A program made the translations under genes and the position numbers. From assembly GCF_003732485.1 (NCBI RefSeq), contig NZ_MOAK01000081.1, positions 360,909 through 424,908 of the forward strand: a stretch of 64,000 nucleotides of DNA, in the 5' to 3' direction. Below are positions 5,489-57,087 of the stretch, piece by piece. How positions within the stretch are numbered: position 1 is the first letter of the stretch; each line of letters opens with the position of its first letter. The DNA is from Pseudomonas protegens. Its GTDB lineage: Bacteria > Pseudomonadota > Gammaproteobacteria > Pseudomonadales > Pseudomonadaceae. Below the pieces are notes generated by a model, which ran no database searches, was not told where the DNA came from, and saw only the letters and a list, made by a program, of their open reading frames with translations.

Positions 5489-5644
5489 TCTCATTGGAGA
5501 AAGATTCCGGGCAGCAGGTCCGGCTACGGCGCCCTCCGGATGCCCATGACTTTCTTATAACTATTTGATTTATAGCTAGTTATTAAGGTTATGGGAGAGC
5601 AGGGCCCGCTCTCCATTGCAAGCACAATCCTGGCAGGAAACCCC

Positions 5645-14600: not shown

Positions 14601-17600
14601 AGCAACTGGCCGGCCCGGCCGCGCAACTGCCGGGGCTCAAGGCCACTGGCAGCCAGCAGCATCAGCAGGCCCAAAGCCACAGCGTGACCCTGGATGCCGA
14701 GCGCACCCGCCAGCTGCTGCAACAGGCCCCAGCGGCCTACCGCACCCAGGTCAACGACCTGCTGCTGACCGCCCTGGCCCGGGTGCTGTGCCGCTGGAGC
14801 GGGCAGCCTTCGGCCCTGGTGCAACTGGAAGGCCACGGCCGCGAGGCGCTGTTCGACGAGATCGACCTGACTCGTACCGTGGGCTGGTTCACCAGCGCCT
14901 ATCCGTTGCGCCTGACCCCGTTGCAAGTGGAAGAAGCGGCCGGGCAGGGCGCCTCGATCAAGGCTATCAAGGAACAACTGCGGGCCGTGCCGCACAAGGG
15001 CCTGGGTTACGGCGTGCTGCGCTACCTGGCGGATGAAAGCTGCCGCGAGGCCCTGGCAGCGCTGCCGCTGGCGCCGGTGACCTTCAACTACCTGGGGCAG
15101 TTCGACCAGAGCTTCGGCGCCGACGCACTGCTGCGTCCGCTGGATGAATCCGTCGGCCCGGCCCACGCACCGGAAGCACCGTTGCCCAACGAACTGAGCA
15201 TCGACAGCCAGGTGTATGGCGGCGAGCTGGTGCTGCGCTGGACCTACAGCAGCGAACGTTTCGACGCCGAGCTGATCGGCGAGCTGGCGGACGCCTACCT
15301 GGGCGAGCTGCACAGCCTGATCGCCCATTGCCTGAAGGACGATGCCGGTGGCCTGACGCCGTCGGACTTCCCCCTGGCGCGCCTGACCCAGACCCAGCTC
15401 GATGGCCTGCCGGTGCCGGCTGTGCAGATCGAGGATGTCTACCCGCTGACCCCGATGCAGGAAGGCATGCTGCTGCACACCCTGTTGGAGCCGGGCACCG
15501 GCCTCTACTACATGCAGGACCGCTACCGCATCAACAGCGAACTGGACCCGGAGCGTTTCGCCCAGGCCTGGCAGACGGTGGTGGCGCGCCACGAAGCCTT
15601 GCGCGCGTCTTTTTGCTGGAACGTCGGCGAAGACATGCTGCAAGTTATCCACAAGCCGGGCCGCACCCCGATCGAATTCCTCGACTGGAGCGCGGTACCC
15701 GAGGCCGAGCAGGAAGCCAAGCTGCAAACCCTGCATAAACAGGAGCGCGAGGCCGGTTTCGATCTGCTCAACCAGGCGCCGTTCCACCTGCGGCTGATCC
15801 GCGTCGGTGCGGCCCGTTACTGGTTCATGATGAGCAACCACCACATCCTCATCGATGCCTGGTGCCGCTCCTTGCTGATGAACGACTTCTTCGAGATCTA
15901 CACCGCCCTCGGTGAAGGTCGCGAGGCGCAGTTGGCGGTGCCACCGCGCTACCGCGACTACATCGGCTGGCTGCAGCACCAGAGCCTGTCGGAGGCGCGG
16001 CAGTGGTGGCGGCAGAACCTAGAAGGTTTTGAACGCACCACGCCGATCCCCAGCGACCGGCCGTTCCTGCGGGAACACGCCGGCGACAGCGGCGGCATGA
16101 CTGTCGGCGACTGCTACACCCGCCTGGATGCCCGGGACGGCGCGCAACTGCGGGAACTGGCGCAACAGCACCAGCTCACCGTCAACACCTTCGCCCAGGC
16201 GGCGTGGGCTCTGGTGCTGCGGCGCATGAGCGGCGATCGCGACGTACTGTTCGGGGTCACCGTGGCCGGGCGCCCGGTGGAAATGCCGGAGATGCAACGC
16301 ACCGTCGGCCTGTTCATCAACAGTATTGCCCTGCGGGTCAAGCTGCCCCAGGACGGTGAGCGCTGCAGCGTGCGCCAGTGGCTCAGCGCCTTGCTCGACA
16401 GCAACATGCAGCTGCGTGAATACGAGTACCTGCCGCTGGTGGCGATCCAGGAAACCAGCGAACTGCCCAAGGGCCAGCCGCTGTTCGACAGCCTGTTCGT
16501 GTTCGAGAACGCGCCGGTGGAAGTCTCGGTGCTGGACCGTGCCCAGAGCCTGAACGCCAGTTCGGATTCCGGCCGCACCCACACCAACTTCCCGATCACT
16601 GCCGTGTGCTACCCGGGGGATGACCTGGGCCTGCACCTGTCCTACGACCAGCGCTACTTCGAGCAGGCGACCATCGAGCGCATGCTCGGCGAGTTCAAGC
16701 GCCTGCTGCTGGCCCTGATGCAGGGCTTCCATGGCGACATGGCCGAACTGGCGCTGCTGGGTGAAGAGGAGCAGGACTTCCTGCTGGCCGGCTGCAACCA
16801 GAGCCAGCATGAGTACCCGCTGGAGCGCAGCTACGTGGAGCTGTTTGAAGCCCAGGTGGCGGCCCATCCGCAACGCATCGCCGCCAGTTGCCTGGACCGG
16901 CGCTACAGCTACGCCGAGTTGAACCGCTACAGCAACCGCTTGGGTCATGCCTTGATCGCCAACGGCGTGGGCTTTGATCAGCCGGTGGCCCTGCTGGCCG
17001 AGCGCGGCCTGGAACTCTTGGGCATGATCATCGGCAGCTTCAAGGCCGGGGCCGGCTACCTGCCCCTGGACCCGGGCCTGCCGGGCCAGCGCCTGGGCCG
17101 TATCATCGAGCTCAGCCGCACGCCGATCCTGGTGTGCAGCGCGGCCTGCCGTGAACAGGCCCAGGCCCTGCTGGACGAGTTCGGCTGTGCCGGGCGTCCG
17201 CGGCTGCTGGTCTGGGAAGAGCTGCAAGCCGCCGGGCATGCCGAGCACAACCCGGGCCGCTACAGCGCGCCGGACAACCTGGCCTACGTGATCTACACCT
17301 CCGGTTCCACCGGCCTGCCCAAGGGCGTGATGGTGGAGCAGCGCGGCATGCTCAACAACCAGTTGAGCAAGGTGCCGTACCTGCAACTGAGTGAGGCCGA
17401 CGTGATCGCCCAGACCGCGTCCCAGAGCTTCGACATTTCGGTCTGGCAGTTCCTTGCCGCACCGCTGTTCGGCGCTCGGGTGGACATCGTGCCCAACACC
17501 ATCGCCCACGATCCCCAGGGCCTGTTGGCTCACGTCCAGGAGCAGGGCATCACGGTGCTGGAGAGCGTGCCGTCGCTGATCCAGGGCATGCTCGCCCAGG

Positions 17601-18673
17601 ACGCCATCGCCCTGGATGGCCTGCGCTGGATGTTGCCCACCGGCGAGGCCATGCCGCCCGAGCTGGCGCACCAGTGGCTGCTGCGTTATCCACAGATCGG
17701 TCTGGTCAACGCCTACGGCCCGGCGGAGTGCTCCGATGACGTGGCCTTCTTCCGTGTCGATATGGCCTCGACCCGTGGCGCCTACCTGCCCATCGGCACG
17801 CCCACCGACAACAACCGCCTGTACCTGATGGACGAAGCCCTGGAGCTGGTGCCCCTGGGCGCGGTCGGCGAGTTGTGCGTGGCCGGTACCGGTGTTGGCC
17901 GCGGTTACGTCAGCGACCCGTTGCGTACAGCGCTGGCCTTCGTGCCCCATCCGTTCGGTGCTGCGGGCGAACGCCTGTACCGCACCGGCGACCTGGCGCG
18001 CCGGCGCAGCGACGGCGTATTGGAATACGTTGGCCGGATCGACCATCAGGTGAAGATCCGTGGCTATCGCATCGAGCTGGGGGAGATCGAAGCGCGCCTG
18101 CATGAACAGCCGGAACTGCGCGATGCCGCCGTGGGCGTGCAGGAGGGCGTCAACGGCAAGCACCTGGTTGGGTACCTGGTGGCCAGTGACACGAACCTGA
18201 GCCCGAGCGAATGCCTGGAGCGGATCAAGCCGCGGCTGCGCGCCGAACTGCCGGAATACATGGTGCCGCTGCACTGGCTATGGCTGGAACGCCTGCCCCT
18301 CAACGCCAACGGCAAGCTCGATCGCAAGGCCCTTCCGGCCCTGGAGATCGGTCAGTTGCAGAGCCAGGACTATCAAGCGCCGGGCAATGAACTGGAGCAA
18401 ACCCTGGCGGACATCTGGGCCGAGGTGCTCAAGGTCGAACGGGTGGGCGTGCGCGACAACTTCTTCGAGTTGGGCGGGCATTCCCTGCTGGCGACCCAGA
18501 TCGCTTCACGGGTACAGAAGACCCTGCAACGCAACGTGCCGCTGCGGGCCATGTTCGAATGCAGCACGGTGCAGGAGCTGGCCGCGTACATCGACGGTTT
18601 GGCCGGGAGTGAGATCAGCGAGGAGAAGGTCGACCGGCTGAGTGATCTGATGGCCGAGCTGGAGGGGCTGTGA
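5645..18673 (+). CDS. pvdL: PvdL, initiating non-ribosomal peptide synthetase of pyoverdine
   Basis: This 4342-residue NRPS has the same length as P. aeruginosa PvdL. Visible order: fatty acyl-AMP ligase ([11 protein letters not shown] at 173), carrier (Ser 617 in LGGNS), condensation (HHIIADGW at 808), adenylation 1 ([11 protein letters not shown] at 1280), carrier (Ser 1672), condensation (HHIVTEGW at 1864), adenylation 2 (2343), carrier (Ser 2743 in LGGDS, the form that precedes epimerases), epimerase (HHLVVDGV at 2923), condensation (HHILIDAW at 3399), adenylation 3 (3884), carrier (Ser 4280). There is no thioesterase, so the chain passes to the next synthetase. By homology PvdL loads a fatty acid, then L-Glu, D-Tyr and L-Dab, the chromophore precursor shared by all pyoverdines. 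ATG 5645 was chosen behind GGCAGGAAA; an upstream in-frame extension is less likely. Confidence 0.97.
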
Positions 18674-44993: not shown

Positions 44994-45764
44994 ATGAAGA
45001 AAACCCTGGCCGTATTGGCCGCCGTACTGTCCCTGAGCGTCAACGCCAACGAAAAGCTGCTGGTGGGCGCGACCCCGGTGCCCCACGCCGAGATCCTCGA
45101 GTTCGTCAAACCGCAACTGGCCAAGGAAGGCGTGGACCTGCAGATCAAGGTGTTCACCGACTTCATCCAGCCCAACCAGCAACTGGCGCTGAAGAACCTC
45201 GACGCCAACTACTACCAGTACCGGCCGTTCCTCGATGACTTCAACAAGACCCGGCACACCGACCTGGTGCCGGTGGTGGGGGTACACATCGAGCCCTTCG
45301 GTGCGTATTCCACCCGGATCAAGCACATTGCCGAGCTCAAGGACGGCGCCACGGTGTCGATTCCCAACGACCCGGTGAACACCGGTCGTGCCCTGGTGCT
45401 GCTGCATGAGGCGGGGCTGATCAAGCTCAAGGACCCGAGCAACACCCTGGCCACCCCGCGTGACATCGTCGACAACCCCAAGCACCTGAAGATCCGTGAA
45501 CTGGAAGGCGCCTTGCTGGCCCGCTCGGTGAGCCAGGTGGACCTGGCGTTCGTGTTCGCCAACTACGCCCTGGAAGCCGGGATCGACACCAACAGCGCCT
45601 TGATCGTAGAGAAGGGCAAGGACCTGTACATCGAGTTTCTGGTGGCCCGCCCGGACAACCTCAACGACCCGCGGATTCAGAAACTGGCCAAGGCCCTGAA
45701 CTCCGACGCAGTGCGCCAATTCATCCTGACCCGCTACAAAGGCCAGATCGCCCCCGGCTTCTGA
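44994..45764 (+). CDS. MetQ-type substrate-binding protein
   Basis: The 256-residue NlpA/MetQ-family binding protein has a short signal peptide (MKKTLAVLAAVLSLSVNA); unlike many MetQ it has no lipobox Cys and is probably free in the periplasm. Family features are GATPVPHAEILEFVKPQLAKEGVDL, DFIQPNQQLALKNLDANYYQYRPFLD, VGVHIEPFGAYS, and NDPVNTGRALVLL. RBS TTAGGAGCAACCC. It is third in the sfnB-metI-metQ operon. Confidence 0.9.
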   Translation: MKKTLAVLAAVLSLSVNANEKLLVGATPVPHAEILEFVKPQLAKEGVDLQIKVFTDFIQPNQQLALKNLDANYYQYRPFLDDFNKTRHTDLVPVVGVHIEPFGAYSTRIKHIAELKDGATVSIPNDPVNTGRALVLLHEAGLIKLKDPSNTLATPRDIVDNPKHLKIRELEGALLARSVSQVDLAFVFANYALEAGIDTNSALIVEKGKDLYIEFLVARPDNLNDPRIQKLAKALNSDAVRQFILTRYKGQIAPGF

Positions 45765-45785
45765 GCATCTGCCCCATCCCCGGCC

Positions 45786-46006
45786 GTAGGAGCTGGCTTG
45801 CCAGCGAAGGGACCCGCGAGATCGCTTTCGCCGGCAAGCCGGCTCCTACAGGCGAGGCGGATAGGTAGGCGCTGGCTTGCCAGCGAAGAGGCCGAGAGAT
45901 CGCTTTCGCCGGCAAGCCGGCTCCTACTGGGGAGGCGGATTGTAGGAGCTGGCTTGCCAGCGAAGAGGCCCGCGAGATCGCCTTCGCCGGCAATCCGGCT
46001 CCCACA
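45786..46006. repeat. Three REP/BIME pairs flanking the unknown operon (3' side)
   Basis: Three successive head-to-head pairs at about 45786-45850, 45875-45928 and 45942-46006, each with GAGATCGC in the inner spacer. They fill the 254-base convergent gap between metQ and the coiled-coil gene. The last unit has two changes (GCAATCCGGCTCCCAC). Confidence 0.88.
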
Positions 46007-46018
46007 GGGCGAGGCGGG

Positions 46019-47353
46019 TCAGGTGCGCTGTTGCGCCCGCTCCCGGTACTCCTGCTGGGTGTCGTCCAGTTGCACTTCCTTGAGCGGCACGGCCCCTACG
46101 GCCAGGGCTTTCTCGATGCTCAGGTCGTCGCCCTGGGCGGCCAGCAGGGCTTGCAGTCGCTGGAATTCGCCGCACCAGAGGGTCTCGATGTCTTTGTCGC
46201 GCTGGGTGTCGCGCTGGGCGCTGAGGGCGACCGCACGTACTTGCAGCCGGCCGTTGTCGGCCGTGCCTCCAACCTCCACGCCATACCCCGGAGTGGCGCT
46301 CTTGCGCAGCACCACTCGACCGTCCTTGGCCCAGGCGGTGGCCATGCCCTCGCGAACTTCGTAGCCCAGGCTGGCCAGGCCTTCGAGTACCGCCTGGCGA
46401 CGGGCCAGGGCAGCGCGTTGTTGCAGCTCGGCTTCGATCAGTGTGTTGAAGCGGGCAATCAGCTCATCCACTGGCGCCATATTGGCCAGGCTGCATTGTC
46501 CGGCCTGGACCAGCTCTTGCTCGACAGCCGTGGGACATAGGAGCGCGACTTCATTGGCCAGCTCCTGGAGAAGAACCAGGCGCGCACGGCGTTCATGGCT
46601 GTCGCGGGTGGCCTGGGCCAGTTCCAGCACCAGGCTGTCCAGCAGCAGGTTGCGCTGTTGCTCGCGGGTTTCGGCGTCTATCTGGCGCAACTTGGCCAGA
46701 TAGGGTTCGGCACTGGCCTGATCATCGAGGGTCAGCAACTGGGCAATGTGCTGCTCGATGCGTTCCAGCCTGGGTTCCTTTTGTTCATGGGCGGCGCGCC
46801 ATTGCGCCAGGGTCTGGGTAGCGCTTTCGCCCTGCAGGCGCCCGGCCAGTTGCTGCTGTGCCTCGCTCAGGCCCTGTTCTTCGGCTGTGGCACCGAGGCT
46901 GGCGAAACCCTGGGCGAGAATCGACTCGACAGCCGCCACGGGCTGTCCGTCGGCAAGCGCCTGCAACTGTTGCAGCAGTTGGGTTGGCAGCGCTTTGCCT
47001 TGCAGCGCGCCCAGCAGAGTGGTGGCGTTTTCCCGCTGGCGGCGGGCCAGTTGGCGCTGTTGCGTGGCCTGCTGCACCGCGCGGTTTTCCCGCTGTTGCA
47101 GATCGTCCTTGAGGTACTGGATTTCGATCGGCACCTGTTTCTGCAGATCCAGCAGGCGATCGGCCTCGATCAATTGGTGCAACTGTTTGAACCGCTCGTG
47201 GGTGGCGGCCCGTTCCTGTTCGGTCAGTTGCCCCAGGCGTTGTGCCTGCTCTTCCCAGCGGGCAATAGCTTGCTCCAGGCGCCGCAGGTGGCCGGCGCAG
47301 ATTTCCAGGATTTCTTCGCGGGTGACGATACGCACCACTTTCGGGCCGCTCAT
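46019..47353 (-). CDS. Coiled-coil protein of the four-gene unknown operon
   Basis: The 444-residue Gln/Leu/Arg/Glu-rich protein starts MSGPKVVRIVTREEILEICA. Heptad-like helix runs from about residue 15 to 135 (HLRRLEQAIARWEEQAQRLGQL, KQVPIEIQYLKDDLQQRENRAVQQ), again at 165-290 (EPRLERIEQHIAQLL, RQIDAETREQQRNLLLDSLVLELAQATRD). The last 130 residues are more globular, with beta-like SLGYEVREGMATAWAKDGRVVLRKS and GYGVEVGG. No signal peptide or membrane segment. Its ATG overlaps the stop of the helicase-like gene by 4 bases, so the two should be made together. I know no family for it; scaffold or adaptor is a guess. Confidence 0.75.
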   Translation of the reverse strand: MSGPKVVRIVTREEILEICAGHLRRLEQAIARWEEQAQRLGQLTEQERAATHERFKQLHQLIEADRLLDLQKQVPIEIQYLKDDLQQRENRAVQQATQQRQLARRQRENATTLLGALQGKALPTQLLQQLQALADGQPVAAVESILAQGFASLGATAEEQGLSEAQQQLAGRLQGESATQTLAQWRAAHEQKEPRLERIEQHIAQLLTLDDQASAEPYLAKLRQIDAETREQQRNLLLDSLVLELAQATRDSHERRARLVLLQELANEVALLCPTAVEQELVQAGQCSLANMAPVDELIARFNTLIEAELQQRAALARRQAVLEGLASLGYEVREGMATAWAKDGRVVLRKSATPGYGVEVGGTADNGRLQVRAVALSAQRDTQRDKDIETLWCGEFQRLQALLAAQGDDLSIEKALAVGAVPLKEVQLDDTQQEYRERAQQRT

Positions 47354-50300
47354 GGGGTTTGCTCCGTGTCAGCCAGGGCTTGGGGTTGCGTCTGTGATGC
47401 GCTGCCGGCCAGCGGCTGCAAGGCCTGCTCGATGGCGGCCTGCAGGCGAGCGCGTTCGCTTTGCGGGTCGTGGTACCAGGCCTGCGACGAGACCCGATGC
47501 AGATGGGGAATGGCCCGGCGCAGTACCGATGGCCGCCAGATTTCCCGGGAGCGGGCGCGGGTCAGCAGCCCATGGCGCGGGGTGTCGCATTCGATGCCCA
47601 GGGCATAGAGCCCGGTATCGGGATGCTCGATGGCAAAGTCCAGGCCAAAGGCATCCCCTTCGTTGGCGCTGACCGGGCTCCAGCCCAGGGTGCGGATGAA
47701 CGCCGCCACCGCCTGGGTGAAACCGTCGCTGTGGGCGTTGTGCTGGACCTTTGCATCCTGGCGCTCGGTGACCAGGCGCCCCAGCAGGTTGTGGCCGCTG
47801 GCGAACTCACCGGCCGACAGGGCTCGGGCGTACTCCAGGTAGCCTTGCAGGTAGTCTCGCGGGCTGGCGGGTGGGCGCTGGGTGGTGAGCATGTCGGAGA
47901 TATCGGCAATCGGCATCGAGGTGATCATCACCACTTTGCGCCGGGCCCGGGTCACCGCCACATTGAGCCGGCGTTCACCGCCGGTTTGTCCCAGGACCCC
48001 GAAGTTGCGCCGGAAACTGCCCTGGCTGTTACGCCCGAAGGTCGAGGAGAACACGATGATGTCGCGCTCATCGCCCTGGACGTTCTCGACGTTCTTGACG
48101 AACACCGACATGTCCTCGCCGTCCTCGCTGCGTTCGCGCTCCTGGCTGTAGGCCGCACGAAACGCCGGGTCCTGCTCGGCGCGCAGCTCCAGGCGCTCCT
48201 CGATCAGGTCGGCCTGCTTGCGGTTGAAGGTCACCACGCCCACCGAGGGCCGTTCGGCGTAGGGCGCTTGCCAGAGCTCGGCCAGGTAGTCGACCACCCG
48301 TTCGGCCTCGTCGGGGTTGACCTGCTGCTGATAGACGCCGTCCACGCGGATCAGCTCCAGCGGCTTGATGGCGAGGATATTGGCCTGGGGATGGCGTACC
48401 GGGATGCTCAGGCGGTTGCCGTAGAACGATGCGTTGGAGAAACCGATCAGCTCGCGGTAGGCCGAGCGGTAGTGGATCTGCAGGGTGGTGGAGGGTAGCG
48501 AGCTGCGAGCCAGTTGCAGCAGATCCGGGCAGTCCTTGATTTCGCGGCGGTTCCAGGTGTCTTCGAAGGCTTCCCGTTGTTCCTCGTCGGCATCGGCGTC
48601 CGGCTGGTCGCCATCGAAGAGTTCGGCCTCGTCGCTTTCCACCCGGCTGGAGAAGAAGGCGGTGGGCGGCATCTGCTTCTCGTCGCCGCTGACCACCGTG
48701 ACCCGACCCCGGTACAGGGTCGGCAGGGCGAACTCCACCGGCATCTGCGAGGCCTCGTCGTAGATCACGATATCGAACAGCCCGGGCTTGAGCGGCAGCA
48801 CCCGGCTGGCCACGTCCGGGTTCATCAGCCACACCGGTCGCAGGCTCATCAGCCCCAGTCCCGCGCCCATCTCCATGAACTCGCGCAGCCTGCGCGAACG
48901 CCGTCCGGTGAGGCGGGTGACGTCTTCCCATTGTTTGCGGGTGCCCAGGCGCGACAGCTCGATGCCTTCACTGAGCAGTTGGCGGTTGAGGCTGCGCATC
49001 TGGGTGTCGGCTTCCCCGAGGCTGGCGATCTTCGCCGCGGTTTCACTGTGCTCCAGCATCAGTTCGGGTTGGCGTTGTTCGATCTGGCGTTTCCAGCCCA
49101 GCCGCGCTTCACGGTTGAGCATGCGCCGGACCACAGCTTCCAGTTGCTCGGCGGGAATCTCGTCGAGCGTTGCTTGGTAGTCCCGCAGTACCCCCAGCAA
49201 CTCCAGGTCTGCCGGCGCCAGCTGGCCGGCCCGGGCGCGGAACGCCTGGTAGGCGCTCAGGGTCGGCAAGGCTTCGCGCAGGCGATTGAGAGGCAACTGA
49301 TTGCTTTGGTTGAGCTCCACGCGCTGGCGCAGTTGGCCCAGCAGCTCCGGTTGCAGCCACTGATTCAGGCGTTGCAGGGCATTCAGGCTGTCCTGGCGCA
49401 CGCTGTGGCGGATAAAGGCCGCGTCATAACCGGCCAGCAGGCTGTCCAGTGATCGCCGCTCACCGGTCAGTATCACGGCGTCCAGTTGCTGGACCTGGGG
49501 CGCTTGCGCCAGCGCCGCGGCTAGAGTGCGCATTTCGTCCAGTTGCCCCAGGTCCTGGCGTACCTGCGGCAGCAGGCCCGGACCACAGTCGTTGGGGATA
49601 TCTGCAAGGCTCAGTTGCTGATGCAGTTGCTGCAACTGCGCGCGCAATGGGCGCCACTGGCTTTCCAGCAGGGCCGCCGCCAGCAGTTCCGGCAGGCGCT
49701 GCGGTTCGGCCGGGGCGCCCTGTTCGGCGAGGAAGGCCAACAGCTTGCGCTGGCGGATCAGGCGCAGCGGGTTGAGGCGTGCCAGCCAGGAGCGACCCTG
49801 GATCACGGCGCGGGCGCGTTGCTGCAGAGTGCGCAGCTGGGCCGCGGGCAGGGCGCTGAGGCCCGGCGCCAGGCTGTCCTGGTGGGCCGCCGTGTCGCAT
49901 TGCTCCAGTTGTTGGCGCAGGGCCTGCAGCGCCAGGATCAGCCCATCGCCTTGCGCTGCTTGGCCGTTATTGCCACGGAACAGGGGGAGCCAGCGCGCCA
50001 GCCGTTGGCGGCGCTCATCGTCCAGGCCCAGCAGGCTGTGCAGGTGCTGCTCGAGCCAGGCGCGGTAGGGCGCCGGGTCGTCGACTTCGAAGTCGGCCGG
50101 GTGCGCCTGCAGGGTTTCCAGGCGCAGCTCCTCGCCGCTCAACAGGCGCTCAAAGCCCTGGTTGAACGCTTGCAGGGTGGCTGCGTCAGTGGGGAAGGCC
50201 TGGAGTTGGGCCAGGGCGCTGTGTTCATAGCGGGCCGGCAGCCACAGGCGGATCAGCGGCGCACAGGCTTCTTCCAGGCGCGTCAGGTCGGCGATGTCCA

Positions 50301-53300
50301 GGGCGGCCAGGTGCTGGCGCAAGACCGGAACATCCAGTGGCGCAGGCCCCTGTTCCAGGCCGATCAGTTCGCCGATCAACTGGCGGTAGCTCAAGCCACA
50401 GTGTTCATCGATGCGGTGCAGGCTCTGGTGGAAGCGATCCAGGTCGCCCTCCAGGGCTTCGATCCGCGCCGCCAGGCGTTCGCGCTGGTGCAGCCAGGGT
50501 TGCTGGGCGGCATCGCTCTTGAACAGGGCTTCGAGCTGTTCGCGGACACTGCGGATCACCGGTTCACGGTCGCGGTTGATGTCGTTGAGCATCACCACCC
50601 GGTTGCCCAGGCCCTCGGCCACCAGGCGCTTGTGTACCACTTCCAGGGCGGCGTGCTTCTGGCAGACGATCAGCAGGCTGCGCTGGCGACCGATGGCATC
50701 GGCCACCATGTTAACGATGGTCTGGCTCTTGCCGGTGCCGGGCGGGCCCTCCACCAGTAACCCGGGGGCCTGGCGGGCCTGGAGCACCGCGGCTTCCTGG
50801 GAAGGGTCGCTGGCCACGGTAAAGAAGCGCTGCAGTTCAGGCGGGAGCGGGGTGGCCTGGCTGTCGCTGCTGTCTGGTTCCGTCGGACTCAGGCGCAGGG
50901 CGGTTTCCAGGCCGGTGCCGCCGGGAGGCAGGGCCTTGAGCTGGCGCAGGTCCTCGCCAATGGCCTGGCCCATGAAGGCCACATGGAACAGCACGGCGGC
51001 ACAGGCCAGTTGATCCTGGTAGGGCTGCACTTCGGTGCTCGGCGGCGGCAGGCTGCCGAGCACTCGGGAGCTGGCTGTGGCCAGCATGCCGAAGGCGTCC
51101 ATGACGTCGGCGGCCTTGAGCGCCGAGCGCCCCAGCAGTTCGTCGGCGGCCTTGCGCCAGAGCTTGGCGGCATCAATGCCCAGCAAGGTGTCGAGCCCCG
51201 GGTTGAGGCGCACCTCTTCACGCTCGCTGTCGAAGACCAGGGCCACCTTGCCGCGGCTGCCGACTTCCAGCAGCAGCTTGACCGGCCACAGCAGCAAGGG
51301 TGCGATGCGGGTGCGGGTGGTGCCCCGCGGGTCCCGGGTCAGAAGGAAGGGGAAGCCCAGGTACAGGCCATCGATCCCGGTGTCGCGTTTGTACAGCGAG
51401 CTCTGGCGGTACAGGCTGTTGAGCCGCGCATCCAACTGCGGGTTCTCGGCGAAGCACGCCGGGTCGAGGGTGATGGGCTGGGCGTTGCGCGCGATCAGGT
51501 GATCCAGTAGCGCCGGGGCCGGGCTGCGCTCGCTGTGCAATTCGTTGAGGTCGACCCGGGCGGTGGTCTTGCCGATGCTCATGCGCACCAGCGGGCCGCG
51601 TAGCACCACGCTGGCGACCTTTTTCTCGAAGAAGTCGAGGATCTGCGAAACGTAATGCTGCTTTTGCGGTTCCAGCCACTGCTCGGCGCCGATGGCCAGC
51701 AGCACCAGGGCCTTGGCCAGGGGCATGCGCCGTTCCAGGCGAAATTGCTCGGCCCACTCATCGATGCTCGGCACGCCACAGCGGGCGAAGCCGCTGATGC
51801 GTTCGTCGATTTCACGGTACAAGGCCGGGCGCGGCAGCCCCAGCAGTGCGCGGGCGCTATCGGCATCGAAGCTCAGGACCACGGCCTCGCGGGCCAGGGT
51901 GGTGGCCTCCTCCAGGATGGCGTCCACCGAGCGGAACTGACCGATGGCGGCACTGAGCAGCACGATCAGGTCTTCTTCGCTGATGGAGCGGCGGTCCGCC
52001 AGGGACAGGATGCCGTTGTGCTCGCTGTCCGGCAGCAGGCGCTGGCGTTCTTCCCACTGTGCGGCCAGACGGGCGCGGGAGCTGGAGAGCAGGTAGATGC
52101 GCAGTTGCTCCTCGTCCAGTTCGATGGCCTGGTGCTGGGCGCGCTGGCGTACCTGTTCGGCCCGCAGCTTGAGCCGCGACAGCCAGTGCTCGGTCTCCAG
52201 GCGTTCCAGCAGGTCCGGGGCCGGGCCGCTGATCAAGCGGTAACCGTCCAGGGGATGCTCCAGCAACCAGCCGGGGGTGACGATCTCGCCGCGCTGGATC
52301 AGGGGCATTTCCGGGTTCAGCAGTTTCAAGGCGAGCATCAGCCGGGTGTCATCGTCCAGCCCTTCGTGCTGGGCCACCTGGCGCAGGCCCGCCAGCTGCC
52401 GTGCGGGCAAACCGGCCTGTTCGGCCCAGGTGACGATCACCCCACGCAACAGGTGATCCAGGGCCTGGGGCCAGTGCTCGACCTCGGCGGCCGCCAGGGC
52501 GAACGGCCCCGGCCGGCGAAAGCGCCGGCTGCCCAGGGCGATGCTGGCGCCTTCGTCGGCGTCCTCTTCGCTGGCGACCGAGTCCGGTACGCTGGGGCTT
52601 TCGCCCTGGAGCCAGGCCTGCACCTGGGGCCATTGCCAGCGCTGGTGACGGTCCCGGGCCAGCAGGCCGCGCAGCAGCAGCTCCAGGCGCGGGTCGAGGT
52701 CGTCCGGCAGCATTACGCCATTGGCCAGGATGTGAATCAGGTAGGCGTTGGCATTGATGCCGGCGAAGCACTCACCCTGGGTCAACTGTTCCAGCAGGAT
52801 CATCCCCAGGCTCCACCAGTCGGAGGCGGCGGCCACGCCTCCGGCGATGGCTTCGGGGGCCATGTAGCGGCTGGTTTCCAGAGGCGAGACGATGTCCAGG
52901 TCGAACTCCGACAGCCGCGCCGAACCGAAGCCGCTGATCACCAGGTCCAGGGGCTCACGGCTGCGCACCAGCAAGGTCGCGGGACGCAGGTCGCGGTGGC
53001 GCAGGCCGGCTTCGCTGAAGGCATGCAGGGCCTGGCCCAGTTCACTGACGATGTGCTGCACCGCGGCCCTGTCGCTGACCACGATCCCCAGATCGGCCAG
53101 GGTGCCGCCGGTGAGTTCCTCGGCCACTTCGAAGGCGCGCTCGTCCCAACGGCCAGTGTGGATGATCTCCGGCACGTGTTCCCGGGGCAGGCGCTTGAGG
53201 GCTTCGTACACCGAGGGATCGGGTTCGGCGCCGGCCTGGTAGAGGGTCAGTACCGCCTGGTGGGCGGTTTCACGGTGCTCGGCGATAAAGCGCTCGCGCA

Positions 53301-53667
53301 CGCCGCCGCTGCTGATCTGCCGCAACAGGCGCCAGCCGTCGATCACGGTTTCACTGTCGGCGGCTGGGGGCGCGGCGGGTGGCTGTTGCTCCGGGGCGAG
53401 CGGATCGGCGCCGCAGACCAGGCACATCAAGTCGCCGTCCGCCATGGCATGACCGTTGCCGCAGAGCAGGGGGGAGCCGCTGTCCGCCGCGACCGGGGGC
53501 TGCGGCTCAAGCGCTTCGAGGGTGATGACCGGCTGTGGGCGCCAGCCTTCGGGATGAATCGCTTCGGCGGAGAGTTCCCAGCCGCAGGCCCGGTTGTCGA
53601 CCCGCCCTTCGCAGAAGATTTCGGCCAGTGAGCGTTCAGTCTGGCAATTGGGGCAAAAACGTATCAT
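47350..53667 (-). CDS. Giant zinc-ribbon / pseudokinase / COG1112-type helicase / nuclease-like protein
   Basis: 2105 residues in one frame. Residues 5-28 (C5, C8, C19, C28) and 69-85 (C69, H73, C82, C85) look like two zinc ribbons. Residues about 110-350 resemble a Ser/Thr kinase with lost key positions: VAIK Lys replaced (QAVLTLYQ), HRDLRPATLL for HRDLKPxN, SGFGSARL for DFG. A DUF4011-like region follows near 730-800 (LYKRDTGIDGLYLGFPFLL, APLLLWPVKLLLEV). An SF1 helicase/ATPase of the AAA_11/AAA_12 type has Walker A GPPGTGKS (about 972), a long coiled insert, Walker B VIYDEASQMPVE (1637), GDEKQMPP, HYRSAYRELIGF, ERDIIVFSSTFGRN and LNVAVTRARRKVV (1906). The C-terminus (1975-2090) reads DFAIEHP...ALGIECDTPRH, like a restriction-endonuclease/Vsr-like domain. 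Overlaps the coiled-coil gene by 4 bases. Function unknown; antiphage or nucleic-acid surveillance is inferred. Confidence 0.85.
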   Translation of the reverse strand: MIRFCPNCQTERSLAEIFCEGRVDNRACGWELSAEAIHPEGWRPQPVITLEALEPQPPVAADSGSPLLCGNGHAMADGDLMCLVCGADPLAPEQQPPAAPPAADSETVIDGWRLLRQISSGGVRERFIAEHRETAHQAVLTLYQAGAEPDPSVYEALKRLPREHVPEIIHTGRWDERAFEVAEELTGGTLADLGIVVSDRAAVQHIVSELGQALHAFSEAGLRHRDLRPATLLVRSREPLDLVISGFGSARLSEFDLDIVSPLETSRYMAPEAIAGGVAAASDWWSLGMILLEQLTQGECFAGINANAYLIHILANGVMLPDDLDPRLELLLRGLLARDRHQRWQWPQVQAWLQGESPSVPDSVASEEDADEGASIALGSRRFRRPGPFALAAAEVEHWPQALDHLLRGVIVTWAEQAGLPARQLAGLRQVAQHEGLDDDTRLMLALKLLNPEMPLIQRGEIVTPGWLLEHPLDGYRLISGPAPDLLERLETEHWLSRLKLRAEQVRQRAQHQAIELDEEQLRIYLLSSSRARLAAQWEERQRLLPDSEHNGILSLADRRSISEEDLIVLLSAAIGQFRSVDAILEEATTLAREAVVLSFDADSARALLGLPRPALYREIDERISGFARCGVPSIDEWAEQFRLERRMPLAKALVLLAIGAEQWLEPQKQHYVSQILDFFEKKVASVVLRGPLVRMSIGKTTARVDLNELHSERSPAPALLDHLIARNAQPITLDPACFAENPQLDARLNSLYRQSSLYKRDTGIDGLYLGFPFLLTRDPRGTTRTRIAPLLLWPVKLLLEVGSRGKVALVFDSEREEVRLNPGLDTLLGIDAAKLWRKAADELLGRSALKAADVMDAFGMLATASSRVLGSLPPPSTEVQPYQDQLACAAVLFHVAFMGQAIGEDLRQLKALPPGGTGLETALRLSPTEPDSSDSQATPLPPELQRFFTVASDPSQEAAVLQARQAPGLLVEGPPGTGKSQTIVNMVADAIGRQRSLLIVCQKHAALEVVHKRLVAEGLGNRVVMLNDINRDREPVIRSVREQLEALFKSDAAQQPWLHQRERLAARIEALEGDLDRFHQSLHRIDEHCGLSYRQLIGELIGLEQGPAPLDVPVLRQHLAALDIADLTRLEEACAPLIRLWLPARYEHSALAQLQAFPTDAATLQAFNQGFERLLSGEELRLETLQAHPADFEVDDPAPYRAWLEQHLHSLLGLDDERRQRLARWLPLFRGNNGQAAQGDGLILALQALRQQLEQCDTAAHQDSLAPGLSALPAAQLRTLQQRARAVIQGRSWLARLNPLRLIRQRKLLAFLAEQGAPAEPQRLPELLAAALLESQWRPLRAQLQQLHQQLSLADIPNDCGPGLLPQVRQDLGQLDEMRTLAAALAQAPQVQQLDAVILTGERRSLDSLLAGYDAAFIRHSVRQDSLNALQRLNQWLQPELLGQLRQRVELNQSNQLPLNRLREALPTLSAYQAFRARAGQLAPADLELLGVLRDYQATLDEIPAEQLEAVVRRMLNREARLGWKRQIEQRQPELMLEHSETAAKIASLGEADTQMRSLNRQLLSEGIELSRLGTRKQWEDVTRLTGRRSRRLREFMEMGAGLGLMSLRPVWLMNPDVASRVLPLKPGLFDIVIYDEASQMPVEFALPTLYRGRVTVVSGDEKQMPPTAFFSSRVESDEAELFDGDQPDADADEEQREAFEDTWNRREIKDCPDLLQLARSSLPSTTLQIHYRSAYRELIGFSNASFYGNRLSIPVRHPQANILAIKPLELIRVDGVYQQQVNPDEAERVVDYLAELWQAPYAERPSVGVVTFNRKQADLIEERLELRAEQDPAFRAAYSQERERSEDGEDMSVFVKNVENVQGDERDIIVFSSTFGRNSQGSFRRNFGVLGQTGGERRLNVAVTRARRKVVMITSMPIADISDMLTTQRPPASPRDYLQGYLEYARALSAGEFASGHNLLGRLVTERQDAKVQHNAHSDGFTQAVAAFIRTLGWSPVSANEGDAFGLDFAIEHPDTGLYALGIECDTPRHGLLTRARSREIWRPSVLRRAIPHLHRVSSQAWYHDPQSERARLQAAIEQALQPLAGSASQTQPQALADTEQTP

Positions 53668-53682
53668 CGGTAGCGGTTCCGG

Positions 53683-54327
53683 TTAACGGCGGCGTGAGGT
53701 GTGGGCGCTGATCTGGAGTTGGTGGCCCTGGTCGTGCAGCAGGTCGCGCAGACGCAGCACGTCGTCACGCCGAGGGATTCCAGCCATCCAGACACTGCCG
53801 TTGTCGTCGAACATCACATCCAGCGCGCGGTCCTCGCGGTGCAGCGGGCGCTGGTAGGCGGACAGACGCTGGCGGCCCAGCTCGGTCAAGAGGATCAGGC
53901 GCTGGTTGTCGCTGCCCCGTAGGACCAGCGTTTGCGCCTGTTGTTGCTCGAAGGGGTCGCAGATCAGTGCATCCAGCAGGCCTTCGGCTTGTTCAAGCAG
54001 CGGTTGCAGGGTTTCCAGGGAGTGCCCGCTGTAGACCAGGATGTCGACCTGGGTGCGTTCGCGCAGGGCTCTAAGCAGGGCCAGTAGCGCCTCGGGCTGG
54101 TCGAAGGGCTCGCCACCGGACAGGGTGATGCCTTCGGCCCGGGCCAGCCAGGGTTGCAGGTCGTGCAGCACCTGGCTCAACGGCAATGGCTGCTTGCCCG
54201 GCCCCCAGGTGTCCGCGGAAATGCAGCCTTCACAACGGATGCTGCAGCCTTGGAACCACAGGCCCAGGCGCTGTCCCGGCCCCAGGGTGGTGACCGGGAA
54301 GTGCACCCGCGACAGGCTGATGTTCAC
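53683..54327 (-). CDS. Radical-SAM activating enzyme-like protein
   Basis: The 214-residue radical-SAM protein of the NrdG/PflA-like type has the cluster motif CSIRCEGC (CxxxCxxC) at about residues 29-36 in WFQGCSIRCEGCISADTWGPG, SAM-binding ITLSGGEPFDQPEALLALL, and DILVYSGHSLETLQ. The C-terminal third (LDVMFDDNGSVWMAGIPRRDDVLRLRDLL) is not typical of NrdG. GTG at 54327 was chosen: it overlaps the AAA+ stop by 4 bases (GTGA). No glycyl-radical enzyme, the usual partner of such activases, is encoded in the window. Ends 15 bases before the giant helicase-like gene. Confidence 0.85.
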   Translation of the reverse strand: MNISLSRVHFPVTTLGPGQRLGLWFQGCSIRCEGCISADTWGPGKQPLPLSQVLHDLQPWLARAEGITLSGGEPFDQPEALLALLRALRERTQVDILVYSGHSLETLQPLLEQAEGLLDALICDPFEQQQAQTLVLRGSDNQRLILLTELGRQRLSAYQRPLHREDRALDVMFDDNGSVWMAGIPRRDDVLRLRDLLHDQGHQLQISAHTSRRR

Positions 54328-56162
54328 GAGGCGCGGGCAAGCAGTTGCAGGCCGCCGGCCTGCAGTTGGCGGATTTCGAAGGATTGGCCGGGCTGGGCAT
54401 CCTGGTCGAACAGGGCCCGGGCCAGGGGGTTGAGCAGGTGCGCCTCCAACTGGTTGCGAATGCCCCGGCCGCCGTTGGACAGGTCCTGCAGGCACAGCTG
54501 GCGCAGGTTGTTCAGGGACGGGTCATCGAGTTGCACATGCAGTGCCTGGGCCGCCAGGTCGGCGAGGATGTTGCCGACCATCTGCTGGAAGATCTGCTCG
54601 GCGATGTCCGGGCGGATGAAGTCGAAGACAATGATGTTCTCGCCGATCCGGTTGAGGATTTCCGGACGGTTGAGCACCAGTTTGAAATAACGTTCGATCT
54701 CGCCCTGGACCTTGCCCTGCACGGCCTCGAAGGCTTCGCCGGGCTGGACGTTGGCGACTCGCTCGCCGTTGTCGCCCTGGCGGTAGATGCCCAGGTTCGA
54801 GGTGAAGACGATCAGCGCTTCGGAGAAGTACACGCGATCGCCGCGACCGGAGGTGAGCACGCCGTCGTCGAGGATCTGCAGGAACTTGTCGAGGATCCGT
54901 GGGTGAGCCTTCTCGATCTCGTCGAACAGCACCACGCTGAAAGGCTTTTCGCGGATCGCGTTGGTCAGTTCGCCGCCCACGTCGTAGCCGACATAGCCGG
55001 GCGGTGCGCCGACCAGGCGCTGGTCGGCGTGTTCGGCGCTGAATTCCGACATATCGAAGCGGATGTAAGCGCTTTCATCACCAAACAGCAGGCTGGTGAT
55101 GGTCTTGGCCAGTTCGGTCTTGCCGACCCCGGTGGGCCCGGCCAGAAAGGCCACGCCACGGGGGCGATTGCCCTTGCGGCTGGCGCCGACCCCGGTCATG
55201 GCGCGCTTGACGATATCCAGCATGTGGGTCACCGCGTGGGCCTGGCCCTTGACCCGCTGGCGGATGAAGTCGTCGGCCTGGCGAATGCGCTGGCGGTCGA
55301 TCTTCAGCCAGGGGTCTTCGGTGACGCCGACTTTATAGCGGCGCACCGCGTCGCCAATGCGCTCCATGGCCAGGCCTTCGACCCGGGCCAGTTGGACGAT
55401 CGCGTTGAGGTCGAGCAGCAGCAGGCCTTCGGTATTCTCAACGAAGGCTCGCACCGCGTTGTCGCGGCTTTCTTCGCTAGCCTCCTGGGCGCCGGGCAGG
55501 CCTCGCAACAGCGCCGGTGCCAGGGCCTGGCGGGCCTGCTGGTCGGGTTTCGATACGGGAATCGGGCGCAGGCGCGGGTTGTCGATCAGCATCCAGTCGG
55601 GCAGGTCGCCTTCCTTTTCCACCACCCAGAGGATGCTGTTGAAGAACGGCGTGCGCTGCTCCCCGGCCGGGCGGCTGCGGGCCTGGTGGGACAGCACCAG
55701 GGCCTGGGTGAACAGTTGGTGCTCGGCGGCGCTCAGGGCGTCATTGCGGATCACCAGGCGTGATGCAAAGTCGACAATCAGGGCCAGGGGGGCGCCTTGG
55801 CGCTCCACCAGGCGCGGCAAGGTGGCCGCCAGTAGATCGAGGCCGGCCGGCGCCGCTCCTTCCACCGGGGTCAGGCCCAGCTCGCGCAGCAGGTTGTCGG
55901 CCTGGGCCGGTTCGCTGCCCGGAGGCAGCAGCACGCGCAGGCCGCCAAGGGGGTCCCAGCTCAGCACCTGGGCATAGCCCACCGCCAGCAGTTCGTCGCG
56001 CAGATTGAGGTTGAAGGGCTGGGGGGTAATGACCCCGGGGGCCACCTCACTGGCTTGCAGGTCGCGGACGTTGCCGGACAGTACGAACTGGCTTTTCAGG
56101 GGCAGAAAGCGCAGCAGATCGCGCAGCCAGCGTGGCTTTTCGAAGGAGGCAGTCCTTGGCAT
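54324..56162 (-). CDS. ClpB/ClpA D2-like AAA+ ATPase with degenerate N-terminal AAA domain
   Basis: The 612-residue protein starts MPRTASFEKPRWLRDLLRFL. Residues about 25-230 look like a worn AAA domain: LPLKSQFVLSGNVRDL in place of a P-loop, acidic LALIVDFASRLVI, a sensor-like SILWVVEKEGDLP and NPRLRPIPVSKPD. Residues about 310-560 are a good ClpB D2-type domain: Walker A GPTGVGKTE, pore-loop GAPPGYVGYD, Walker B VVLFDEIEKAHP, sensor 1 IVFTSN, arginine finger region RPEILNRIGENIIVF. It lacks the ClpN domain and the ClpP-binding loop I would look for. Probably a protein-remodelling ATPase. First gene of the four-gene operon; no gene precedes it in the 343-base gap to soxR. Confidence 0.87.
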   Translation of the reverse strand: MPRTASFEKPRWLRDLLRFLPLKSQFVLSGNVRDLQASEVAPGVITPQPFNLNLRDELLAVGYAQVLSWDPLGGLRVLLPPGSEPAQADNLLRELGLTPVEGAAPAGLDLLAATLPRLVERQGAPLALIVDFASRLVIRNDALSAAEHQLFTQALVLSHQARSRPAGEQRTPFFNSILWVVEKEGDLPDWMLIDNPRLRPIPVSKPDQQARQALAPALLRGLPGAQEASEESRDNAVRAFVENTEGLLLLDLNAIVQLARVEGLAMERIGDAVRRYKVGVTEDPWLKIDRQRIRQADDFIRQRVKGQAHAVTHMLDIVKRAMTGVGASRKGNRPRGVAFLAGPTGVGKTELAKTITSLLFGDESAYIRFDMSEFSAEHADQRLVGAPPGYVGYDVGGELTNAIREKPFSVVLFDEIEKAHPRILDKFLQILDDGVLTSGRGDRVYFSEALIVFTSNLGIYRQGDNGERVANVQPGEAFEAVQGKVQGEIERYFKLVLNRPEILNRIGENIIVFDFIRPDIAEQIFQQMVGNILADLAAQALHVQLDDPSLNNLRQLCLQDLSNGGRGIRNQLEAHLLNPLARALFDQDAQPGQSFEIRQLQAGGLQLLARAS

Positions 56163-56259
56163 GGAAGCGGAGCTCGTCGTAGGAAGCAGGACGCGACATT
56201 AGCATAGGGACGTTTTTACTTACGATGCTCCACAGGTTTTCTTACCTGTCAGCGCTGAG

Positions 56260-56490
56260 TGGGAATCTGGCTTGCGAGGGAAGATGCCGGTGAGATCGCC
56301 TTCGCCGGCAAGCCGGCTCCTACGGGTATGAAGGCGATGTGGCTGTAGGAGCTGGCTTGCCAGCGAAAAAGCCCGTGAGATCGCCTTCGCCGGCAAGCCG
56401 GCTCCTACGGGTACGAAGGCGATGTGGCTGTAGGAGCTGGCTTGCCAGCGAAGAGGCCCGAGAGTCAGCCTTGGCCGGCAAGCCGGTTCC
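56260..56490. repeat. Three REP/BIME pairs flanking the unknown operon (5' side), with 85-base tandem duplication
   Basis: Three head-to-head REP pairs at about 56260-56324, 56345-56409 and 56429-56490. The segment from TACGGGTATGAAGGCGATGT at 56321 recurs at 56406 with one change, a tandem repeat of 85 bases that includes a whole REP pair. The gap 56163-56505 otherwise holds only a short AT-richer stretch upstream of the AAA+ gene (56165-56225) with a weak TATGCT -10-like element on the minus strand. Confidence 0.88.
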
Positions 56491-56505
56491 GGCGAGGGAA
56501 GCCGA

Positions 56506-56979
56506 CTACGGGCTGTCGGCGGCGGCGTCGGGCTCCAGCAGGCGGGCGCCCGGGCCGGCGTCTCCCAGGACATCTCCATAGTTGCGCAGCGGACACCCTT
56601 CCATGGACAGGCAGCCACAGCCAATGCACTGGTTCAGCCGCTCGCGCAGCAGGCTCAGTTGGCGGATGCGTTCGTCCAGTTCGCGGCTCCACTGTTCCGA
56701 AAGGCGCTGCCAGTCTGCGGCAGTGGGGGCGCGGTCGGCGGGCAGGGTGGCCAGGGCCTGGCCAATCTCCGAAAGGGGAATGCCCAGGCGCTGGGCCACC
56801 TTGATCAGGGACACGCGACGCAGCACCGAGCGCGGGTAGCGCCGTTGGTTGCCCGCGTTGCGATTGCTCTTGATCAGCCCCTTGGTTTCGTAGAAATGCA
56901 AGGCGGTCACGGCCACGCCGCTGCGCGCCGACAGTTGGCCAACCGTCAGTTCTTTGTGGAGGGCGTCGGGTTCGATCAT
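56506..56979 (-). CDS. soxR: SoxR, redox-sensing MerR-family regulator
   Basis: The 157-residue MerR-family regulator has an HTH with the SoxR hallmark ([48 protein letters not shown]), a dimerisation helix, and the 2Fe-2S motif [12 protein letters not shown] at about residues 117-128. In Pseudomonas SoxR responds to redox-cycling compounds such as phenazines and switches on pumps and monooxygenases. It is divergent from a small monooxygenase-like gene with a SoxR box between. Confidence 0.95.
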
Positions 56980-57010
56980 TAAAGGGCACCAGGATGAAAA
57001 ACAGGCTTGA

Positions 57011-57028
57011 CCTTGACTTAACTAGAGG
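57011..57028. promoter_or_regulatory. SoxR box
   Basis: CCTTGACTTAACTAGAGG matches the SoxR consensus CCTCAAGTTAACTTGAGG at 14 of 18 positions, in the 108-base gap between soxR and the divergent monooxygenase-like gene. SoxR is expected to activate that gene. Confidence 0.75.
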
Positions 57029-57087
57029 TATTACCCTGCAGCGCATTCAATCGCAAGATTCTGTCCGACCGCCGTAGGGAGCAGTTC

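Follow-up and report, generated by a model that had tools for sequence, protein, structure and literature searches.

The type I Mokosh system is built from the helicase MkoA, which carries a kinase-like domain, and from MkoB, which carries a PLD nuclease, and Hhe is a single-gene system. To our knowledge, genes for AAA+ ATPases, radical S-adenosylmethionine (SAM) enzymes and coiled-coil proteins have no place in Mokosh, and the radical SAM enzymes described from bacterial immune systems are mainly viperins, which make nucleotide analogues. Here, a four-gene operon of Pseudomonas protegens was analysed that encodes a ClpB-like AAA+ ATPase, a radical SAM enzyme, a giant helicase-nuclease with a kinase-like domain and a coiled-coil protein. 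The operon occupies positions 56162-46019 on the minus strand of a window of 64,000 nt (assembly GCF_003732485.1, contig NZ_MOAK01000081.1, positions 360,909 to 424,908), to which all coordinates refer unless another locus is named. By sequence it carries intact ATPase, radical SAM, helicase and nuclease motifs, and its AAA+/radical SAM pair is, judged from homologues, recurrent in combination with other helicase-nuclease and phospho-signalling partners. It appears fairly probable that the block is a mobile four-gene conflict system, i.e. an immune-type system directed against phages or plasmids. The set was not found described as a system in the literature searched, which consisted mostly of papers available without subscription.

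The coordinates of the four open reading frames (ORFs) were verified and the junctions were read from the sequence. The stop codon of the AAA+ gene and the start codon of the radical SAM gene overlap by 4 bases (GTGA), the radical SAM gene and the gene of the giant are separated by 15 bases, and the latter overlaps the coiled-coil gene by 4 bases (ATGA). In a comparison of 46 loci, for which gene starts were selected by script, the AAA+/radical SAM junction ranged from -4 to +3 in all 46 loci and the giant/coiled-coil junction was -4 in 45 of them. A single transcription unit is supported by this gene spacing, as had been proposed from the same junctions in a sequence-only reading of this DNA that preceded the present analysis.

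The first gene (54324..56162, minus strand) encodes the AAA+ ATPase of 612 aa, which consists of an N-terminal domain (residues ~1-290) and a ClpB-D2-like module. The protein matches the Pfam families AAA_2 (E 1.4e-44) and ClpB_D2-small. Its match to the ClpB equivalog (256 bits, below the cut-off of 1232) covers model positions 529-845 of 853, which is the D2 half, and none of the Clp equivalog cut-offs in NCBIfam was reached. Walker A (GPTGVGKT), Walker B (LFDEIEKAHP) and pore loop (GYVG) motifs are present; both Walker motifs are kept in 33 aligned AAA+ copies of all variants of the family and the pore-loop tyrosine in at least 90% of them. For the window-type operon a conservation set of 39 rows was used, comprising the window copy and 38 others; L005 and L010 are missing from it, owing to an interruption of the coiled-coil gene or to truncation of the AAA+ gene at a contig end. 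Across these 39 copies 270 of the 612 positions are invariant. Residues 1-290 belong to no Pfam family, and weak matches of this part to the lid regions of VCP and Vps4 (E 0.01-0.08) suggest that it is perhaps a degenerate first AAA module. A structure model of the protein had a predicted local distance difference test (pLDDT) score of 55 and was set aside.

The radical SAM enzyme (214 aa; 53683..54327, minus strand) resembles the activases NrdG and PFL, and its likely start is the GTG at 54327 rather than position 54495, where the longest ORF begins. It contains a CxxxCxxC motif and matches the Pfam family Fer4_12 (E 4.8e-23); the three cluster cysteines and the motifs GGEPF and LRGSDNQ are conserved in 39/39 aligned copies. 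The nearest models are those of the NrdG and PFL activases, both of which were matched below the cut-off (for NrdG 73.5 bits, cut-off 126.1). At E 0.01 the enzyme matched none of the PADLOC families, pVip included. A glycyl-radical Pfam domain is absent from the four operon proteins, and no invariant glycine-loop motif was found.

The third gene (47350..53667, minus strand) encodes the giant protein of 2105 aa. From the N-terminus, zinc-ribbon-like cysteine pairs (~1-90) and a kinase-like domain (~106-350; Pkinase, E 1.7e-18) are followed by an undefined region, DUF4011 (E 1.6e-10), a superfamily 1 (SF1) helicase of the UPF1-like kind (~945-1920; AAA_11/AAA_12) and a Vsr-like restriction endonuclease (REase) domain of the MTES_1575 family (1983-2079; E 3.8e-18, 65.8 bits, cut-off 38.2). 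The aspartate and glutamate of the REase are present in 39/39 copies. The zinc ribbons have no Pfam match, and their assignment is based on the invariance of the N-terminal cysteine pairs in the 39 aligned copies. In the kinase-like domain HRD is present in 39/39 copies, DFG is replaced by GFG in 38 and by ELG in one, and the position of the beta-3 lysine is, by our own reading, threonine in the 33 of 39 copies for which its form was listed; with these catalytic residues missing, the domain is predicted to be a pseudokinase. In P. aeruginosa PAO1 the ortholog seems to be split into two genes, which we take to be PA2727 and PA2728; these two appear as one ORF in another strain in the part of a published listing consulted, and strain PA7 carries an intact giant of 2098 aa (locus L031). 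The domain calls of the sequence-only reading (ClpB-like AAA+, radical SAM, helicase, pseudokinase, nuclease) were thus confirmed by Pfam and by residue conservation, that of the zinc ribbons by the invariant cysteine pairs. Its view that the combination is unusual and stands close to Mokosh, with the PLD nuclease lacking, also held, as no PLD family was matched by any of the four proteins (Pfam, E 0.1).

In order to assess whether the genes belong together, genome contigs were scanned with the giant as query, an approach that favours close relatives and gives little information on distant versions. The scan yielded 43 encoding stretches representing 40 distinct loci, and all four genes were present in identical order in 40/40 giant-bearing loci. 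Most of these loci are from Pseudomonas; the others are from Burkholderia, Paraburkholderia, Cupriavidus, Pandoraea, Chitinasiproducens, Stenotrophomonas, Luteimonas, Lysobacter and Xenorhabdus. Single genes are damaged in L005, where the coiled-coil gene is interrupted, and in L046, where the N-terminus of the giant is broken. Correlations between the pairwise distance matrices, calculated for each of the four proteins from 39 copies, were 0.90-0.96, and the maximum in 500 permutations, carried out for the AAA+/giant pair, was 0.35. The distribution is sparse: with the own genome counted in each case, the giant was found in 6/194 relatives, the AAA+ gene in 7/199 sampled genomes of the genus, all seven of which also have the giant, and a match to the profile of the AAA+ N-terminal domain in 7/378 Pseudomonadota genomes. 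In the window the operon is bordered by an NlpA-type lipoprotein gene on the left and by a sigma-54 activator gene on the right. It lies at this same site, with both flanks kept, in L003-L005, and the site is empty in L089, L091 and L092, where ~1 kb separates the same neighbours, the operon is absent from this interval and the giant was not found in the genome. Moreover, eight plasmid records (one from Caballeronia, seven from Rhizobium) cover 80% or more of the giant, and genes for the AAA+ ATPase and the coiled-coil protein are found in these same eight; a radical SAM gene is listed for three of them, and the one record inspected has the four genes in order. Judged from these comparisons, the four-gene block is horizontally mobile and inherited as a unit. 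Co-occurrence as a block in scattered genomes, which the sequence-only reading had named as the point to examine, was therefore found, and the operon, far from being a fixture of one site in all relatives, occurs at several sites and on plasmids.

A wider family was found by plasmid searches with the AAA+ ATPase and with a sister radical SAM enzyme. Its sister operons share with the window the AAA+ gene, at 21-23% identity in the N-terminal domain, and the radical SAM gene, and differ in the other partners. Type (i) consists of genes for a long helicase-like protein annotated as 'AAA domain', a PIN protein, a coiled coil of ~370 aa, the AAA+ ATPase and the radical SAM enzyme, and occurs on plasmids of five genera, namely Acinetobacter, Moellerella, Polaromonas, Leisingera and Photobacterium (L055, which is Acinetobacter pNDM1_010055, L056, L057, L067 and L068). 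In the Polaromonas set (L057), the sole one of this type that was scanned, the helicase matches MkoA with E 7.6e-102, the first 200 residues of the PIN protein match MkoB collinearly (E 1.4e-4), and the sister radical SAM enzyme has weak pVip matches (best E 7e-6). From these matches, this five-gene plasmid operon looks like an uncatalogued relative of Mokosh with a PIN nuclease. Type (ii), on a plasmid of Aristaeella (Bacillota), comprises a DUF4011 protein, a kinase, a coiled coil, an FHA protein with a zinc-ribbon-like start, the radical SAM enzyme, the AAA+ ATPase, a phosphatase, a DUF6273 protein and a second kinase. The giant of the window can be read as a fusion of such genes, with zinc ribbon, inactive kinase, DUF4011 helicase and nuclease in one chain. 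Type (iii), from a Pseudomonadota genome (L080:418-11798), contains a coiled coil, the AAA+ ATPase, the radical SAM enzyme, a zinc ribbon-FHA (ZnR-FHA) protein, a phosphatase and a kinase, as well as two FGE-sulfatase-like genes; no helicase match was found within 20 kb, and it is possibly a signalling version that functions without one. The phosphatase of these kinase/FHA variants is of the PP2C kind, and two sister operons are located on plasmids classified as conjugative. A smaller set, with genes for an AAA ATPase, a DUF1257 or hypothetical protein, a DUF2997 protein and a radical SAM enzyme and sometimes a helix-hairpin-helix gene, was observed on plasmids from actinobacteria and Paenibacillus (L062, L063, L065, L069); their AAA genes are not among the AAA+ relatives listed, and these sets were put aside.

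The last gene of the operon (46019..47353, minus strand) encodes the coiled-coil protein of 444 aa, which begins with MSGPK, belongs to no Pfam family, matched no PADLOC model at E 0.01 and lacks a convincing match among PDB sequences. In its good AlphaFold model (pLDDT 83.7), ~300 mostly helical residues separate an N-terminal strand (residues 2-10, including MSGPK) from the C-terminal part (~337-418), and the ranges aligned with known structures suggest that both form one small domain. The top row of a VIA-align comparison was the KA1 (kinase-associated) domain of Chk1, with Z 8.1 and a root-mean-square deviation of 2.7 over 88 residues, a level at which chance arrangements arise; the KA1 rows of SOS2, AMPK, SAD and MARK1 (Z 7.2 to 5.4) were interleaved with the unrelated dynein tail and spermine synthase. 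Neither solved structures nor viral models gave a Foldseek match with E <= 0.001. A KA1-like fold beside a kinase-like domain may nevertheless serve as a lead. Cys394 is invariant in 27/27 window-type copies (one from the window, the others from 26 of the 40 loci), and by eye a cysteine precedes a similar-looking helix in 19/19 coiled-coil proteins of all variants. The aligner placed it in one column for 13/18 proteins, the five PIN-type ones being shifted. In profile comparisons the window-type proteins were linked weakly to those of types (ii) and (iii) (probability 9 and 6%, E 0.004-0.006), with the cysteine aligned, and the PIN-type proteins were linked to the G275/G439-type coiled coils with a probability of 90%. 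Because profile comparison gives no link between window-type and PIN-type proteins, the cysteine shared by these two rests on inspection by eye. We hypothesize that this cysteine may be a substrate of the radical SAM enzyme. A GYGVE-like stretch is also conserved in the window-type proteins, with the variants PGVGVE, TGFGVE and PDYGLE. A 218-aa ORF at 7731-8387 of L059 (Rhizobium pSK02) corresponds to the C-terminal part of the coiled-coil protein only and is perhaps a remnant of the operon; HEPN/nucleotidyltransferase and ThiF/multiubiquitin genes are located nearby.

Links to defence were sought at the level of position and of homology. Johnson et al. (2023) described the core defence hotspot cDHS1 of P. 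aeruginosa, the marker genes of which are present in every isolate (PMC10250203). According to the text consulted, the DUF4011 gene is core in the isolates examined and the block was used as a boundary marker of cDHS1, with no defence role proposed in that text (PMC10250203). The operon is taken to be the right edge of this hotspot because it lies near pheT in PA7 (~20 kb away on the same sequence) and in P. otitidis (~8 kb), an assignment made from published work and position and not from alignment of locus tags. The best PADLOC match of the last ~1150 residues of the giant is PDC-S37 (E 4e-151), followed by Hhe and MkoA, and the NCBIfam anti-phage model ProA is matched with 537.8 bits (cut-off 1500). 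For ProA, no account was found in the literature searched. A PADLOC scan at E 1e-20 covered 119 of 126 flanking ORFs from 14 of the 40 loci and was run without a control region. In total 87 families were matched, and the 25 listed include HamA and HamB (Hachiman), JetA and JetC (Wadjet), BrxA, LmuB and type II methyltransferase models, each with one ORF. JetA and JetC adjoin the operon in Luteimonas, and a methyltransferase is found in the flank of PA7. These flanking defence genes are suggestive. Occurrence in defence islands, which the sequence-only reading had proposed to check, was thus seen in part, at the edge of cDHS1 and beside the Wadjet genes in Luteimonas, and not at the window's own site; of the matches to catalogued systems that it wished to see checked, PADLOC returned those of the giant and nothing for the radical SAM enzyme and the coiled-coil protein. 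What goes beyond that reading is the AAA+/radical SAM pair with PIN and with kinase/FHA/phosphatase partners, and the block as a boundary of cDHS1.

If the block is a conflict system, a mechanism could be outlined as follows. The giant, with its UPF1-type helicase and Vsr-like nuclease, would patrol nucleic acid and, as the effector, cleave the DNA or RNA of an invader. The zinc ribbons and the pseudokinase of this protein could form a sensor or regulatory head in place of the kinase and ZnR-FHA proteins that sister operons encode separately, and sensing would proceed through the zinc ribbons or the helicase. The coiled-coil protein, the two ends of which may build a KA1-like domain, would dock on the giant and restrain it. 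The radical SAM enzyme would modify a partner protein by radical chemistry, with the conserved cysteine of the coiled-coil protein as the candidate site, and this mark could designate the complex as armed or report on a cellular state, for instance SAM, iron-sulfur or oxygen status. Finally, the AAA+ ATPase would pull the marked protein through its GYVG pore, so that the nuclease is released or reset. Tentatively, and with a probability well short of even, the operon may represent a new class of immunity in which a SAM-derived radical modification of a protein is read by a ClpB-like unfoldase and arms or resets a helicase-nuclease. The AAA+/radical SAM pair with its coiled-coil adaptor would then be a portable control module, combined with various killers (Vsr-like REase, PIN) and with varying phospho-signalling inputs (pseudokinase, kinase-FHA-phosphatase) in at least Pseudomonadota and Bacillota.

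Several observations weigh against a conflict system or against parts of this mechanism. No phenotype is known for the operon. The window copy is situated in no defence island and instead lies within an organosulfur-type metabolic cluster (40697-61806) with genes for a PepSY membrane protein, acyl-CoA-dehydrogenase-like proteins, a luciferase-like monooxygenase and an FMN reductase. The G+C content of the operon is above that of its flanks in 30 of 36 loci and below it in 6, recent imports often being low in G+C. Two phage records gave partial helicase matches, neither of which covered more than 43% of the giant, and no viral contig was found. When flank proteins were scanned singly, 17/20 had no PADLOC match at 1e-20, and the scan of 119 flanking ORFs is to be read in view of its missing control region. 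A universal AAA+/radical SAM core is called into question by two AAA+ relatives for which no radical SAM gene was seen on their short contigs, 10 and 8 kb in length; both have a coiled-coil ORF of the MSGTPK/MSATPK type. The KA1 match with Z 8.1 is at the level of chance arrangements, with unrelated folds among the KA1 rows, and profile comparison leaves the window-type and PIN-type coiled coils unlinked (0.1 and 0.2%). The core status of the DUF4011 gene in P. aeruginosa would also suit a housekeeping or stress role, as far as the text consulted describes it (PMC10250203).

Such a role is the substance of one alternative, according to which the operon encodes a host stress-response or nucleic-acid quality-control machine and its position at a defence hotspot is incidental. 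The helicase-nuclease would clear damaged or trapped RNA or DNA, the AAA+ ATPase would dismantle complexes and the radical SAM enzyme would be a redox or iron-sulfur sensor. ClpB-type unfoldases are typical of stress systems, the G+C content does not look foreign, and the 270 invariant AAA+ positions as well as the metabolic neighbourhood of the window copy fit this explanation, as does the core DUF4011 gene of the P. aeruginosa isolates, within the text consulted (PMC10250203). A machine of this kind is, however, difficult to reconcile with occurrence in only 7/199 genomes of the genus, with empty sites, with copies on large plasmids and relatives on conjugative ones, and with a helicase-nuclease half whose nearest families are anti-phage, and we regard it as unlikely. 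The same nearest families could mean that the giant belongs, in diverged form, to one of the named single-gene defence families (ProA, Hhe or PDC-S37) and that its neighbours are there by chance. The helicase-nuclease half does reach 538 bits with ProA and E 4e-151 with PDC-S37, but the cut-offs are missed (538 against 1500 for ProA; 322 against 2000 for Hhe), and with the partners present in 40/40 loci, near-constant junctions and matched divergence this explanation is highly improbable.

The two remaining alternatives concern the radical SAM enzyme. It might be viperin-like and produce a small molecule against viruses, in which case the helicase giant would act independently of it; the defence-like setting and the weak pVip match of the Polaromonas sister enzyme (best E 7e-6) would agree with this. 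The window enzyme itself is without a PADLOC match, resembles NrdG and PFL activases and is adjacent to the AAA+ gene in 46/46 loci, which makes a viperin-like function very unlikely. The resemblance to these activases leads to the other proposal, namely that a hydrogen atom is abstracted from a glycine of the coiled-coil protein (PGYGVE) or of another protein, resulting in an oxygen-sensitive switch. The GYGVE-like stretch of the window-type coiled coils would provide a site, but the stretch is variable and missing from the other variants, and none of the four proteins has a glycyl-radical domain in Pfam, so that this proposal, too, is rated as improbable. Should the preferred conflict system with modification of a partner protein be correct, radical chemistry would serve immunity in a different way, by controlling an immune effector through protein modification. 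The position of the block at the edge of the P. aeruginosa core defence hotspot offers a testable system in a common laboratory genus, and the sister operons allow an independent comparison of the control core with swappable effectors.

On the left side, positions 45765..46018 form the junction region, which separates the operon from the NlpA-type lipoprotein gene (44994-45764, plus strand) and contains repetitive extragenic palindromic (REP)-like repeats. On the right side, the upstream region 56163..56560 contains REP-like repeats and, by eye, a -10-like element (TATGCT); the right junction lies within it, as DNA from ~56561 onward is common to the empty-site genomes. The repeats, which belong to the GTAGGAGCCGGCTTGCCGGCG family, were thus observed on both sides of the operon near the insertion junctions (45780-46018 and 56163-56480). 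A sigma-70 consensus promoter was not found upstream, and a scan for promoters and terminators gave nothing over chance. By eye, a promoter-like pattern, CTGGAAA ... ATACCCTG, precedes the AAA+ gene in five loci from several species (L008, L013, L015, L023, L029), and the window carries TATGCTAAT at a similar distance ahead of this gene. A 193-aa ORF at 56465-57046 was considered as a fifth gene and rejected; it belongs to the right flank, the DNA of which occurs in the empty-site genomes, and is perhaps no gene. Elsewhere in the window, a plus-strand ORF of 4360 aa (5591-18673) is accompanied by very long antisense ORFs.

None of the four proteins reaches an NCBIfam cut-off, and the comparison with known systems is one of partial likeness. 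With Mokosh the operon shares an SF1 helicase of the UPF1 type joined to a kinase-like domain, together with a nuclease. It differs in that the best-matching stretch of the giant to MkoA, a model for which no curated cut-off is given, is residues 1630-1921 (173.8 bits), in that the kinase-like domain lacks the catalytic residues of the active Ser/Thr kinase of Mokosh, and in that the nuclease is Vsr-like in the giant or PIN in the sister operons instead of the PLD partner of Mokosh. ProA (NF058533) and PDC-S37 match residues 943-2096 and 948-2093 of the giant, i.e. helicase and C-terminal nuclease, whereas the N-terminal 900 residues and the three partner genes are not shared and the ProA cut-off is not reached. 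Hhe (NF042953) likewise has a DUF4011-type helicase with a nuclease end, and the giant scores 322.4 bits, below the cut-off of 2000. The CoCoNuT systems combine a motor ATPase, a coiled-coil protein, a UPF1-like helicase and a nuclease; their ATPase is a McrB-type GTPase, unlike the ClpB-like AAA+ ATPase of the window, and the terms radical SAM, ClpB and NrdG are absent from the main text of their description (PMC11090510). In the vWA-MoxR/VMAP ternary conflict systems, as far as covered by the text consulted, an AAA+ ATPase also occurs with a radical SAM enzyme, predicted by the authors to modify a peptide, and an SF1 helicase with PIN is among the effectors (PMC7159879). The AAA+ ATPase there is of the MoxR type and accompanied by vWA, whereas that of the window is ClpB-D2-like with no vWA match, and the radical SAM enzyme is of a kind with SPASM or associated with Memo/AMMECR1 (PMC7159879). 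Within the portions of these sources consulted, the vWA-MoxR conflict systems (PMC7159879) and the CoCoNuTs (PMC11090510) are the nearest published ideas found for the four-gene block.

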